Positions 8,709-56,022 of a stretch of DNA of 64,000 nt are shown here, piece after piece. A program made the translations under genes and the position numbers. The first letter of the stretch is position 1, and every line of letters starts with the position of its first letter. This stretch comes from Sphingomonas koreensis (GTDB lineage Bacteria > Pseudomonadota > Alphaproteobacteria > Sphingomonadales > Sphingomonadaceae). The stretch is taken from contig RCZF01000003.1 in NCBI GenBank assembly GCA_006438735.1, forward strand, positions 1 to 64,000, given 5' to 3'. The notes beneath the pieces are model-generated. The model was given only the letters and a program-made list of their open reading frames with translations. It had not been told where the DNA came from and ran no database searches.

Positions 8709-9479
8709 ATGCCCGATCCGATCATCATCGCCGTCCCCAAGGGACGCATCCTCGATGAGGCGCTGCCGCTGCTGGCGCGCGCCGGGATCGAGCCCGAAGC
8801 GGCGTTCTCGGACGACGCCAGCCGCGCGCTGCGCTTCGCCACCAATCAGCCGCATATCGAGTTGATCCGCGTCCGCGCGTTCGATGTCGCGACCTTCGTC
8901 GCGCACGGCGCCGCGCAGCTCGGCATCGTCGGATCGGATGTGCTGATGGAATTCGACTATTCCGAGCTCTATGCGCCGGTCGATCTCGGCATCGGGCATT
9001 GCCGCCTGTCGGTCGCAGAACCCGCCGATATGGCCCAGACCGACGATCCGCGCGGCTGGAGCCACGTTCGGATCGCGACCAAATATCCCCACGTAACGAG
9101 CGCGCATTTCGAGGCGCGCGGCGTGCAGGCCGAATGCGTCAAGCTGAACGGCGCGATGGAACTGGCGCCGACGTTGGGCCTCGCGCCGCGGATCGTCGAT
9201 CTCGTGTCCTCGGGACGCACGCTCAAGGAAAACGGCCTCGTCGAAGTCGAGGTGATCGCCGAGATCACCAGCCGCCTGATCGTCAACCGCGCCGCGTTCA
9301 AGACGCGCGGCGAAGTGGTGCCGCTGGTCGAAGCGTTCCGGCGGGCGGTGAGCACCTCCCCCTCCCGCGTGCGGGGGGGGGCCGGGGGGTGGGCTCTCGA
9401 CCACGGCGAGCGCACCGAGCGTGGACCGCGCGAGCCCACCCCCAAGCCCTCCCGTAAACGGGAGGGGAGAAGCGCGTGA
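8709..9479 (+). CDS. hisG: ATP phosphoribosyltransferase, short form
   Basis: This enzyme performs the first step of histidine synthesis, joining ATP and PRPP. '[18 protein letters not shown]' (start), '[12 protein letters not shown]' with the substituted Leu, and '[20 protein letters not shown]' (PRPP loop) are clear. The conserved fold ends near residue 215 ('LVEAFRRAV'), as in HisG-S, which needs a HisZ partner that is not in this window. The last 40 or so residues are encoded by a palindromic repeat (9356-9468) and are Arg/Pro/Gly-rich, unlike any HisG tail I know. The stop overlaps the GTG start of hisD by 3 nt, so the two are co-translated. Confidence 0.95.
9356..9468. repeat. Palindromic repeat forming the hisG 3' end
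   Basis: The left arm 9356-9396 and right arm 9432-9468 are imperfect inverted copies, sharing CTCCC-CTCCCG at the outside and GTGGGCTC/GAGCCCAC at the inside. Each arm is itself a hairpin (CTCCCG..CGGGAG on the right). The whole element is read as protein at the end of hisG. Confidence 0.75.
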
Positions 9480-14104: not shown

Positions 14105-15115
14105 ATGACCGAAGCCGAGTTTCTCGCCGCGCTGCGCACGCTGCCGCTCCATGCCGGTGCGCAGGACTTGCGCGACGATAGCGCGCGGCTCGGCGAGCTG
14201 GTCCTAACCACCGATACGATCGTCGAGGGCGTGCATTACCTCGCCGGGGATCCGTCGGGCGATGTCGCGTGGAAGCTGCTGGCAGTGAACCTCTCCGATC
14301 TCGCCGCCAAGGGCGCGGTGGCCGAGGGCGTCTTGCTCAACTATCCGCTCAGGGCCAGTTCCCCGGCGCAGGCCGGGGCCCCGTTGGGGGACGAATATGG
14401 TGAAGGGCAGCACGCCGTTACCTCGGCCTTCCCAACTGGGCCCCGGCCTTCGCCGGGGAACATATCAAAAGGCTGGGACGCCGCTTTCCTCGCCGGCCTG
14501 TCCGCCGCTCTCACCCGCTTCGCCTGCCCGCTGCTTGGCGGCGATACCGTGTCGCTGCCGGCGGACGCACCGCGCGTGATCACACTCACCGCGATCGGCC
14601 GCGCCGCCGCACCGCCCGCGCGCTCCGGAGCGCAGGCCGGCGACGCGCTCTACGTCACCGGCACGATCGGCGACGCCGGCGCGGGGCTGCGCATCGCGCG
14701 CGGCGAGCCCGGCCCGGCCGCGCTGCTTTGCGCCTATCGAAGGCCGCAGCCGCGCCTCGCCGAAGGCCGCGCGCTCACGCCGGTCGCCCACGCGATGATG
14801 GACGTCTCCGACGGGCTGCTGATCGACGCCGCGCGCATGGCCGAGGCGAGCAGCCTCGCGCTGACGATCGATCTCGCCGCCGTTCCGCTGTCGGCGGAAT
14901 ACCGCGCCTTCGCCGGCGATGACCGCCCCGCCCGCCTTGCCGCCGCCACCGCGGGCGACGATTACCAGCTGCTGTTCGCCGCGCCGGAAGATTTCACGCC
15001 GCCGGTTGCCGCCACCTGCATCGGCCGCTTTGCGCCCGGCGACGGCCTCACGCTCACCGATGCCGGCGAAGCCATCGCGCTTCCTGCGTCGCTCGGCTTT
15101 ACCCACGGCGCTTGA
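14105..15115 (+). CDS. thiL: Thiamine-monophosphate kinase with an internal repeat-encoded insert
   Basis: The enzyme phosphorylates thiamine monophosphate to the diphosphate with ATP. 'LRDDSARLGELVLTTDTIVEGVHY', 'KLLAVNLSDLAAKGA', 'LLGGDTVS', 'MMDVSDGLLIDAARMA' and 'AATAGDDYQLLFA' are the expected ThiL/PurM-fold motifs, read in adjoining blocks. Between 'LLNYPL' and 'GWDAAFLAGLSAAL', where homologues have only a few residues, about 40 residues are encoded by a 104-bp palindromic element (14358-14461) without breaking the frame. The insert lies between the DLAAKGA helix and the next helix, far from the nucleotide motifs, so the enzyme may still work. Confidence 0.93.
   Translation: MTEAEFLAALRTLPLHAGAQDLRDDSARLGELVLTTDTIVEGVHYLAGDPSGDVAWKLLAVNLSDLAAKGAVAEGVLLNYPLRASSPAQAGAPLGDEYGEGQHAVTSAFPTGPRPSPGNISKGWDAAFLAGLSAALTRFACPLLGGDTVSLPADAPRVITLTAIGRAAAPPARSGAQAGDALYVTGTIGDAGAGLRIARGEPGPAALLCAYRRPQPRLAEGRALTPVAHAMMDVSDGLLIDAARMAEASSLALTIDLAAVPLSAEYRAFAGDDRPARLAAATAGDDYQLLFAAPEDFTPPVAATCIGRFAPGDGLTLTDAGEAIALPASLGFTHGA
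14358..14461. repeat. 104-bp palindromic element inside thiL
   Basis: The left arm 14358-14388 and right arm 14431-14461 are 31-nt inverted copies matching at 29 positions, separated by 42 bp. Each arm also folds on itself (CCCCGGC-GCA-GGCCGGGG type). The same architecture occurs at 35136-35222. The element is translated in frame within thiL. Confidence 0.85.
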
Positions 15116-35122: not shown

Positions 35123-35135
35123 GCGTGCTTATTCC

Positions 35136-35222
35136 GTCACCCCCGCGAAAGCGGGGGCCCATCTCCAACGGCTCGCCACGATCGACCATCAGGAGATGGG
35201 TTCCCGCTTTCGCGGGGGTGAC
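35136..35222. repeat. Palindromic repeat between hisA and hisF
   Basis: The left arm 35136-35166 and right arm 35192-35222 are 31-nt inverted copies matching at 29 positions around a 25-bp centre. Each arm folds on itself (CCCCCGC-GAAA-GCGGGGG). It has the same architecture as the thiL element and would be transcribed in the his message. Confidence 0.85.
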
Positions 35223-35264
35223 GGCTGTTGGCCGGTCCGATTGGTTGCACCCCGAGAGCGGTGC

Positions 35265-36080
35265 ATGACCGTCCGCGCCCGCGTCATCCCTTGTCTCGAC
35301 GTCGCCAACGGCCGCGTCGTCAAGGGCGTCAACTTCGTCGATTTGAAGGACGCCGGCGATCCCGTCGAGCAGGCGCGCGCTTATGACGCCGCCGGGGCCG
35401 ACGAGCTGTGTTTCCTCGATATCACCGCCAGCCACGAGGCGCGCGGCACGCTGATCGACGTCGTCCGCCGCACCGCCGAAGTGTGCTTCATGCCGCTCAC
35501 CGTCGGCGGCGGGGTGCGTTCGGCCAAGAACGCACGCGCCTTGCTACTCGCCGGGGCCGACAAGGTCGCAGTCAATTCGGCTGCGGTGACGCGGCCCGAA
35601 CTGGTCGCCGACATCGCCGAGCGGTTCGGCAGCCAGTGCTGCGTCGCCTCGGTTGATGCGCGACGCGTCGGTGCGGGGCGCTGGGAGGTGTTCACCCACG
35701 GCGGCCGCCGCGAAACCGGGATCGACGCGGTCGCGCATGCGCTGCGGCTTGCTGATTTGGGCGCGGGCGAATTGCTCGTCACCTCGATGGACCGTGACGG
35801 CACGCGTGACGGCTATGATCTCGACCTGATCCGCGCGATCGCCGACCAGGTGTCGGTGCCGGTGATCGCCTCGGGCGGGGTCGGCGGATTGTCGGACCTC
35901 GTCGCCGGCATTCGTGACGGCCGCGCCTCGGCCGTCCTCGCCGCGTCGATCTTCCATTTCGGCGAGGCAAGCATCGCCGACGCCCATGCCGCGCTGGCCC
36001 GGGCGGGTATTCCGGTGCGGAGGCCAGTCGCCTCAAATCGATCCTCCCCTGCAAGGGGAGGTGGCAGCCCGAAGGGCTGA
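35265..36080 (+). CDS. hisF: Imidazole glycerol phosphate synthase, cyclase subunit
   Basis: The 271-residue (beta/alpha)8 subunit closes the imidazole ring. '[18 protein letters not shown]' with the catalytic Asp, '[20 protein letters not shown]', '[12 protein letters not shown]', '[19 protein letters not shown]' with the second Asp, and '[10 protein letters not shown]' are canonical. HisF normally ends at about residue 252 with G(I/V)PVR; here the reading frame runs on for 19 residues ('[19 protein letters not shown]') encoded by a palindromic repeat. Confidence 0.96.
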
Positions 36081-36163
36081 CGGAGGGGTGTCGCGCCGTC
36101 TGGATGGTGACACCCCTCCACCACCGGCTAGCCGGCGGTCCCCCTCCCCTTGCAGGGGAGGAT
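36041..36163. repeat. Long palindromic repeat at the hisF 3' end
   Basis: The outer arms CCTCCCCT-GCA-AGGGGAGG (36043-36062) and CCTCCCC-TTGCA-GGGGAGG (36144-36162) are inverted copies, as are GGAGGGGTGTC (36082-36092) and GACACCCCTCC (36109-36119). The first 40 bp are translated as the HisF tail; the rest is intergenic. Confidence 0.75.
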
Positions 36164-54242: not shown

Positions 54243-54456
54243 ATATGATCTCTCCGAAAATAATCGGCCCGGCCGTCGCTCGGGCCCGGCGCAACATTCG
54301 GCGGGGACGGGCCACGCCCATCCCGTCCCCGCCTCGCCAGCGTCGCTTGCGACGCGGCGAATTTGTCTGCGGTGCCGGGCCGCTCCCCCAACCGGCCACC
54401 CATTCGGAATACCCTGTGGGTGGCCGGGTGGGGGAGCGCGCCGGCACCGCAATCAA

Positions 54457-55599: not shown

Positions 55600-56022
55600 C
55601 TAACCACTCTCCACCGCATGAATCCGCGCCAGCGCCTGCATCGGCTGCGCGACGAGGCTGACCTCGACCAGCTCGACCGCGGTCAGCTCACGAACCTGTC
55701 CGGTTCGTGCACCCTTCACTCGATAGCCGAACGACAGCCCGCTCACCGCGCCGGCCTTCACCAACCCGGCGAGCCGCGCGTCATCCACCCGCCCGATCAC
55801 CCGCAGCCCTCGCGCATCCTCGCCGATCGCCTCGATCACGCCGACCGGCGGCCCGCCATGCTGCCACAGCAACGGCACCGCGCCGGCCCCGCCAAACGCG
55901 CCGCTGCGCACCACGTCGCCGCCGCGATCGACCCGATCGAACACCGCCGCATAACCGGCAAACCTGAGACTCCCCTCCCGCCTGCGGGAGGGGTGGGGGG
56001 AGGGCATGTCACCCGCGCTCAC
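55600..56022 (-). CDS. HK97-family prohead protease
   Basis: The 140-residue protein starts at GTG 56022, overlapping the DUF6127 stop (GTGA); ATG 56007 is the alternative. 'LRFAGYAAVFDRVDRGGDVV', 'PLLWQHGGPPVGVIEAIGED' with the catalytic His, and 'AVSGLSFGYRVKGARTGQVR' with the Ser are in place. The residues before 'RFAGYA' ('MPSPHPSRRREGS') are encoded by a hairpin repeat (55972-55993) and are not part of the fold. It matures the capsid in intact elements. Confidence 0.88.
   Translation of the reverse strand: MSAGDMPSPHPSRRREGSLRFAGYAAVFDRVDRGGDVVRSGAFGGAGAVPLLWQHGGPPVGVIEAIGEDARGLRVIGRVDDARLAGLVKAGAVSGLSFGYRVKGARTGQVRELTAVELVEVSLVAQPMQALARIHAVESG
55972..55993. repeat. Hairpin repeat translated at the protease N terminus
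   Basis: CCCCTCCCGC (55972-55981), CT, GCGGGAGGGG (55984-55993) is a perfect ten-pair stem inside the protease reading frame, next to a purine-rich tail. Confidence 0.75.

Follow-up and report, generated by a model that had tools for sequence, protein, structure and literature searches.

The thiL gene of Sphingomonas koreensis carries a 104-bp palindromic element that is read in frame as part of its product, the vitamin B1 kinase ThiL. The gene lies in the window analysed here, which is the whole stretch of 64,000 nucleotides at positions 1 to 64,000 of contig RCZF01000003.1 (GenBank assembly GCA_006438735.1). We regard it as almost certain that the element was inserted into thiL and is one member of a dispersed repeat family, here called family A. 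Taken as a whole, the explanation that we consider likely is that of a miniature palindromic element that is non-autonomous and the spread of which is driven by a cognate GIY-YIG nuclease. The features concerned are as follows.

14105-15115, plus strand: thiL, thiamine-monophosphate kinase; 336 amino acids, single copy, frame open with the insert
14351-14473, plus strand: ThiL loop, from LLNYPL to WDAAF; 41 codons, against most often 4 at the empty site
14358-14461, no strand: palindromic element, family A; 104 bp, in frame as part of ThiL
14358-14388, plus strand: left arm; 31 nt, holding the hairpin CCCCGGC-GCAG-GCCGGGG
14389-14430, no strand: spacer between the arms; 42 nt
14431-14461, minus strand: right arm, inverted; 29 of 31 positions match the left arm; hairpin followed by a CCAG tail

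The element in thiL

The open reading frame at 14105-15115 is ThiL by TIGR01379 (220.6 bits against a curated cut-off of 184.15). The alignment with solved ThiL proteins covers residues 31-80 and 123-316, but not those that the element encodes. A search of the genome gave no second thiL, the remaining matches being repeat copies. Thus, thiL is a single-copy gene with an open frame and not a pseudogene with an intact copy elsewhere, which the sequence-only reading had named as a refutation.

That reading described a 104-bp element with 31-nt arms that are identical at 29 of 31 positions, and these figures hold; its extent, 14352-14475, was slightly wide. The complementarity of the arms is 94%. 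The left arm starts with GTTCCCC, family A having the tag GTTC in place of CGTC, and the tails of the window copy are CCAG on the right arm and CCCG on the left. Folded as RNA, the stretch reaches -82 kcal/mol compared with a mean of -53 for shuffled sequences (z -7.8), and as DNA it gives a z of -8.8; none of 200 shuffles folded as well. The minimum-energy structure is a single long hairpin; separate hairpins of the individual arms, as had been suggested, can be drawn by eye but are not this best fold. The 10 Rfam matches were all to microRNA-precursor models and below the gathering scores; they were disregarded, since a long hairpin would give such matches.

The 104 bp are not divisible by three. 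The loop has 41 codons where 4 is most common, so the net gain in thiL is 111 nt, or 37 residues, and seven extra bases flank the element. In the predicted structure of ThiL, which matches ThiL structures (top match 3c9t), the mean predicted local distance difference test (pLDDT) score is 91.3, blocks of residues 91-120 average 47-55, and residues 105-113 fall below 50. Based on these low scores the insert looks like a floppy loop, although they are partly expected because few alignment rows contain the insert. The approximately 37 extra residues are probably disordered and the loop permissive, as far as the model tells. The open frame and the conserved domain downstream suggest that the insert is translated. 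In the model, the insert follows a strand (72-83) and precedes a helix (121-138), and does not lie between two conserved helices as first proposed.

Copies elsewhere in the genome

A BLAST comparison of the element with its own genome gave 61 matches, both strands and partial matches included. We examined 25 loci with matches and took 28 places from them, comprising 27 compact copies (less than 150 bp) and one copy of 376 bp. Of the compact copies, 23 are approximately 100 bp and four are 65-70 bp; they have inverted GTTCCCCGGCGAAGGCCGGGGCCCAG-like arms in common and variable spacers. The CCAG tail is present in most aligned family A copies. Exact matches to the arm pattern CCCCGGCGNAGGCCGGGGYCCAG number 42 in this genome. 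Across the genus, 113 of 151 genomes (this one among them) contain the pattern, and none contains a reversed control pattern. Among 72,556 plasmid records, one contains the thiL element.

Open reading frames overlapping the copies were counted as hosts where a Pfam or NCBIfam match spans both sides of the repeat, and the others were dropped; judged by eye, these appeared spurious or were doubtful extensions. Four of the 28 places are in frame in conserved genes: thiL, hutG, the gene for a 2-oxoacid dehydrogenase E2 and that for Sua5. In brief, hutG (N-formylglutamate deformylase) scores above the cut-off of TIGR02017, with the best stretch reaching residue 200, and the repeat codes for residues 198-231 approximately. 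Its solved homologue aligns to residues 8-189 and then weakly, not significantly, to 234-274. The E2 repeat (approximately residues 125-158) lies in a linker, after the lipoyl domain (5-77) and before the E3-binding domain (166-194). Sua5 has a short copy (approximately residues 230-253) just past the start of the Sua5_C match; no gain in length was seen here, as there is no gap and the best solved homologue aligns across the repeat. The arm is read as PAQAG or PAKAG in ThiL and E2, and as FPGEGRGP in hutG and Sua5. With two readings in four hosts, no single frame is needed.

The genome-wide count thus reveals a dispersed family, and its in-frame presence in thiL, hutG, E2 and Sua5 bears out the parallel that the sequence-only reading drew with the palindromic elements reported in Rickettsia proteins.

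GIY-YIG genes between inverted arms

The 376-bp family A copy (locus L064, also taken as L056:6812-7187; contig C8 of the genome, G000) consists of two arms around an open reading frame for a 98-residue GIY-YIG protein, with GTTCCCCGGCGAAGGCCGGGGTCCAGTT on each side. The neighbouring genes encode malate dehydrogenase and the alpha subunit of succinate-CoA ligase. Beyond the arms, this element and the miniature copies have approximately 10 further end nucleotides in common (for example TTGGGAAGGC and TTGCGAAACG); deeper in the spacer they are not clearly alike. The L064 element had no match among the plasmid records, and the plasmids yielded no insertion polymorphism.

PF01541 identifies six genes in the genome, one of which is UvrC; the proteins of L064, L063 and L066 score above its cut-off. 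All five non-UvrC genes, at five loci, have inverted arms of several families within 300 bp, with scores of 21-33, and the flanks of the UvrC gene score 9. Among 4,472 overlapping control windows of the same geometry (464 kb of this genome), none reached 20 and 10 reached 16.

Two of these genes, L062 and L063 (G000:C1), are flanked by CCGTTCGTCCTGAGCTTGTCGAAGGACG-type repeats, and their nucleases are the likely partner of that repeat family. Another, L065, has an in-frame stop.

In the genus, 40 GIY-YIG genes were fetched in rank order, omitting this genome's own genes, the rows that preceded the first one used, and G054:C85. Inverted arms scoring at least 16 were found at 28 of the 40. The same score was reached by 26 of 30 GIY-YIG genes in genomes with a thiL insert and by 17 of 26 top-match genes (one more was skipped at a contig end); these sets overlap, with at least two loci in common. 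None of 400 random windows reached 16. Of 21 genes from other alphaproteobacterial families, 12 score at least 16 and eight at least 20, seven more near contig ends having been skipped, compared with five and four of 334 control windows, respectively. Many of the flanking arms carry, by eye, a CGTC-like tag and a CCA tail.

In those other families, the GIY-YIG genes L277, L266, L286 and L274 lie between inverted arms that start with GTCAT-like tags.

A search for the Y1 transposase domain (PF01797) gave no match in the genome at E<=0.01, and found the domain in 6 of 14 named control genomes. An origin of the element through a REP-associated tyrosine transposase (RAYT), where REP stands for repetitive extragenic palindrome, finds no support in this search.

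Specificity of the association between nuclease and arms

On a quickly built tree of 98 GIY-YIG proteins, based on 74 columns and with few supported forks, arm family requires 31 changes, compared with 64.5 for shuffled labels. The family A arms, found at 16 of the genes, require two changes compared with a shuffled mean of 15.1, and one row with another label (L260) falls within the family A clade. The labels were set by our own patterns, and of 101 loci 25 were labelled 'none' and 10 'other'.

Copy number points in the same direction. The median number of arm copies is 37 in the 69 genomes with a close family A nuclease (two at zero) and 1.5 in the 82 genomes without one (36 at zero). A close family A nuclease is here a best match to the L064 protein at E<=1e-38, a cut-off chosen post hoc; four cut-offs agree. 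Arm copies have a rank correlation of 0.55 with the family A nuclease and of 0.36 with another GIY-YIG type, and the partial rank correlations are 0.48 and 0.19, respectively. Kinship was not removed in any of these copy-number figures.

Based on the arms around the genes and on the likeness to RAYT systems, in which the RAYT genes keep a fixed genomic place, we lean towards the GIY-YIG nuclease as the enzyme driving these REPs. The element itself, a pair of REP-like hairpin arms in inverted order with the 42-nt spacer between them, sits in frame in a permissive loop of ThiL. We suggest that the nuclease would recognise the arms, perhaps when single-stranded or extruded, and cut there, and repair would copy or insert the arm pair at a new place. 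It would act in trans, with its gene remaining at a fixed locus like the RAYT genes. The 104-bp units would be internally emptied derivatives of the nuclease-coding element, and copies in genes would survive solely when they keep the frame and fall in a flexible loop or linker.

Several observations weigh against this explanation. Mismatched pairs of flanks reached a score of 16 in 25 of 192 cases, flanks in direct orientation did so at 13 of the 40 genus genes, and 12 of the 40 do not have inverted arms at that score. Where GIY-YIG genes are nearly identical, their flanks are homologous as well; the loci are thus inherited in place, and much of the agreement between arms and proteins is orthology; recent hopping of the nuclease gene is thereby not supported. 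We observed no insertion event and no target duplication. Of the 82 genomes without a close family A nuclease, 18 hold at least 20 arm copies, and three genomes with one hold fewer than three. The copy-number link is not significant on nine independent phylogenetic pairs (50 genomes), where the mean numbers of pairs pointing the same way and the opposite way are 0.7 and 0 at a threshold of at least 5 copies, 2.7 and 0 at 10, and 3.3 and 1.0 at 20.

The foremost alternative is that the thiL feature is an ordinary intragenic REP dimer spread by another enzyme, such as a lost RAYT or a transposase acting in trans, and that the GIY-YIG genes merely sit in REP-rich spots. The arm-rich genomes without a close family A nuclease and the inheritance of the loci in place speak for it, and REP dimers in genes are already on record in the accessible text of PMC3733652. 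We nevertheless consider it rather doubtful, given the genome without a Y1 match and the inverted arms on both sides of five of five non-UvrC genes compared with none of the 4,472 windows. In addition, the flanking recurs with different repeat families, and the nuclease clade agrees with the arm family.

The thiL loop across Sphingomonas

The loop was taken from 128 loci representing 102 distinct genes, a set biased to the best-scoring relatives, and from 20 low-ranking genes, none of which duplicates that set (122 distinct genes in total). It is empty, with 0-5 residues, in 100 of the 122 genes, has 6-21 residues in seven, and 38-57 residues, in frame, in 15. No insert was found in the 20 low-ranking genes. 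All 15 long loops are palindromic, with arms of 23-36 nt and 0-3 mismatches. The empty site expected by the sequence-only reading is therefore found in relatives, and an insert common to the whole genus and lacking palindromic character, which would have spoken against an insertion, is not what we see. The seven intermediate loops may be deletion scars, and the short loops GSPAQG (L017) and RSPAQARESD (L085) may be remnants of deleted copies.

Twelve of the 15 inserts belong to family A and two (L152 and L153, both CGTC-tagged REPs) to a second family, CCGTCACCCCGGGCTTGTCCCGGGGTCCAC and a variant. The thiL gene L014 holds a third family, family C, with GCCCCTCCCC...GGGGAGGGG. No such arm was noticed among the GIY-YIG flanks that were inspected, although no search was dedicated to a family C nuclease.

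On a quick ThiL tree with the insert removed, family A requires nine changes, at least five of them forced by starred branches; shuffled labels require 11.6 on average, and nine or fewer in 7 of 500 shuffles. All insert labels together require 14 changes compared with 21.4 when shuffled, and the states are scattered. The ThiL proteins nearest by path, L080 and L160, have an empty loop. Judging from the sequences, at least three repeat families have entered this loop, as three families occur at the site and their states are scattered on the tree, and family A has probably entered it more than once. The spacers cannot prove this: the L009 spacer is at most 0.76 similar to other thiL spacers and at most 0.74 to the own-genome copies.

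Alternatively, one old insertion in the Sphingomonas ancestor could have been followed by many losses, with the arms gene-converted or replaced by other REP families. In its favour, the spacers look orthologous within three sets of genes (L010/L148/L150, L012/L013 and L016/L154/L157), and the possible scars and the slow change of the arms fit it as well. Three thiL pairs (L010/L148, L012/L013 and L016/L157) look orthologous. Between their members, 4 of 138 arm sites and 20 of 153 spacer sites differ, compared with 172 of 485 four-fold degenerate sites elsewhere in thiL; four more pairs have 1-3 differences per 46 arm sites. The arms change more slowly than four-fold sites, so the hairpin is constrained or homogenised even within a gene, and selection and gene conversion both fit. 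We find a single insertion unlikely in view of the three distinct palindrome families at one site and of inserts scattered among empty genes, with family A changing repeatedly on starred branches.

It is improbable that the element is more than tolerated, with its hairpin retained for regulation within the thiL mRNA or its peptide functional: the hairpin is very stable, its arms are more conserved than the four-fold sites in the three pairs and all 15 inserts of at least 38 residues keep arms with at most three mismatches, but 100 of 122 thiL genes do without the element, the inserts vary in family and length, and gene conversion from other copies fits the same conservation. The kept frame had been taken to imply selection for tolerated insertion, which is plausible, but survivorship explains it equally well.

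Relation to known repeat systems

REPINs, which are paired REPs, and RAYTs comprise GTAG REPs with TnpA-REP, a nuclease whose gene stays put and is flanked by the same repeats. The present element is similar in its inverted hairpin pairs of approximately 100 bp and in the fixed nuclease gene between the same repeats. In contrast, it carries no GTAG tag, the genome has no Y1 match, and the linked enzyme is a GIY-YIG nuclease. Like a miniature inverted-repeat transposable element, it shares its terminal arms with a coding element, L064.

According to the accessible text of Di Nocera et al. 2013 (PMC3733652), CGTC REPs are mostly alphaproteobacterial hairpins with a CCA tail; most of them form inverted dimers in which a spacer of 20-100 bp separates the two units, and no dedicated transposase had been found for them in 2013. 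The element described here is likewise an inverted dimer, with a 42-nt spacer and a CCAG tail, and the thiL inserts of L152 and L153 carry CGTC. It differs in that family A in the window has GTTC, and in that many such arms here enclose a GIY-YIG gene. The same text assigns the Rickettsia palindromic elements (RPEs) RPE-4 and RPE-6 to the CGTC REPs, and RPE insertions are summarised in the review PMC10969869. As far as the accessible parts of these two sources go, RPEs and the present element are alike in being palindromic, dispersed and in frame in unrelated genes. The likeness to RPEs is by description and not by sequence; the Sphingomonas element is in another genus and has GC-rich arms, one thiL loop is used by several families, and a GIY-YIG gene lies between cognate arms.

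In the accessible text of the GIY-YIG survey PMC1564403, no palindromic repeat is named as a partner and the stem 'palindrom' does not appear; 'nuclease' is absent from that of the 2025 REP survey PMC12306157. A literature search by title, start of abstract and term counts, with bioRxiv and most subscription papers outside its scope, gave no link between GIY-YIG nucleases and REPs or palindromes among the best 10-25 papers listed for each query. Intragenic insertion of palindromes is of a known kind, and the recurrent thiL site and the GIY-YIG partner appear to be new.

A process reported for Rickettsia, in which palindromic repeats add peptides to conserved enzymes, is thereby seen in Sphingomonas. 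As one thiL loop holds distinct families in several species, the rules of tolerated insertion become testable in a tractable host. We give slight preference to a wider reading, in which small GIY-YIG nucleases are dedicated partners of a large alphaproteobacterial REP superfamily (the CGTC type and its relatives, including RPE-4 and RPE-6), comparable to RAYTs but of unrelated fold, and in which the miniatures repeatedly enter genes such as thiL. If GIY-YIG nucleases are indeed causal, this would answer the 2013 question of what spreads CGTC REPs, and RAYT would be joined by a second type of enzyme that sustains populations of repeats in bacterial chromosomes.

Other palindromes in the window

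An inverted repeat with 40-nt arms (88%) and a 14-nt loop at 54363-54456 is a hairpin that matches no family recognised in this analysis. Palindromes of the form CCCCTCCC...GGGAGGGG are located at 36041-36163, 9356-9472 and 55972-55993 and are like the insert that the Sphingomonas immobilis thiL gene contains (L014/L074). A partner nuclease was not noticed for them, and no dedicated search was made. A CGTC-tagged REP dimer (CCGTCACCCCCGCGAAAGCGGGGGCCCATCTCC, 33-nt arms, 94%) is found at 35134-35224, upstream of an open reading frame that resembles hisF, and the arms around the interrupted GIY-YIG gene L065 are of a family similar to this dimer.
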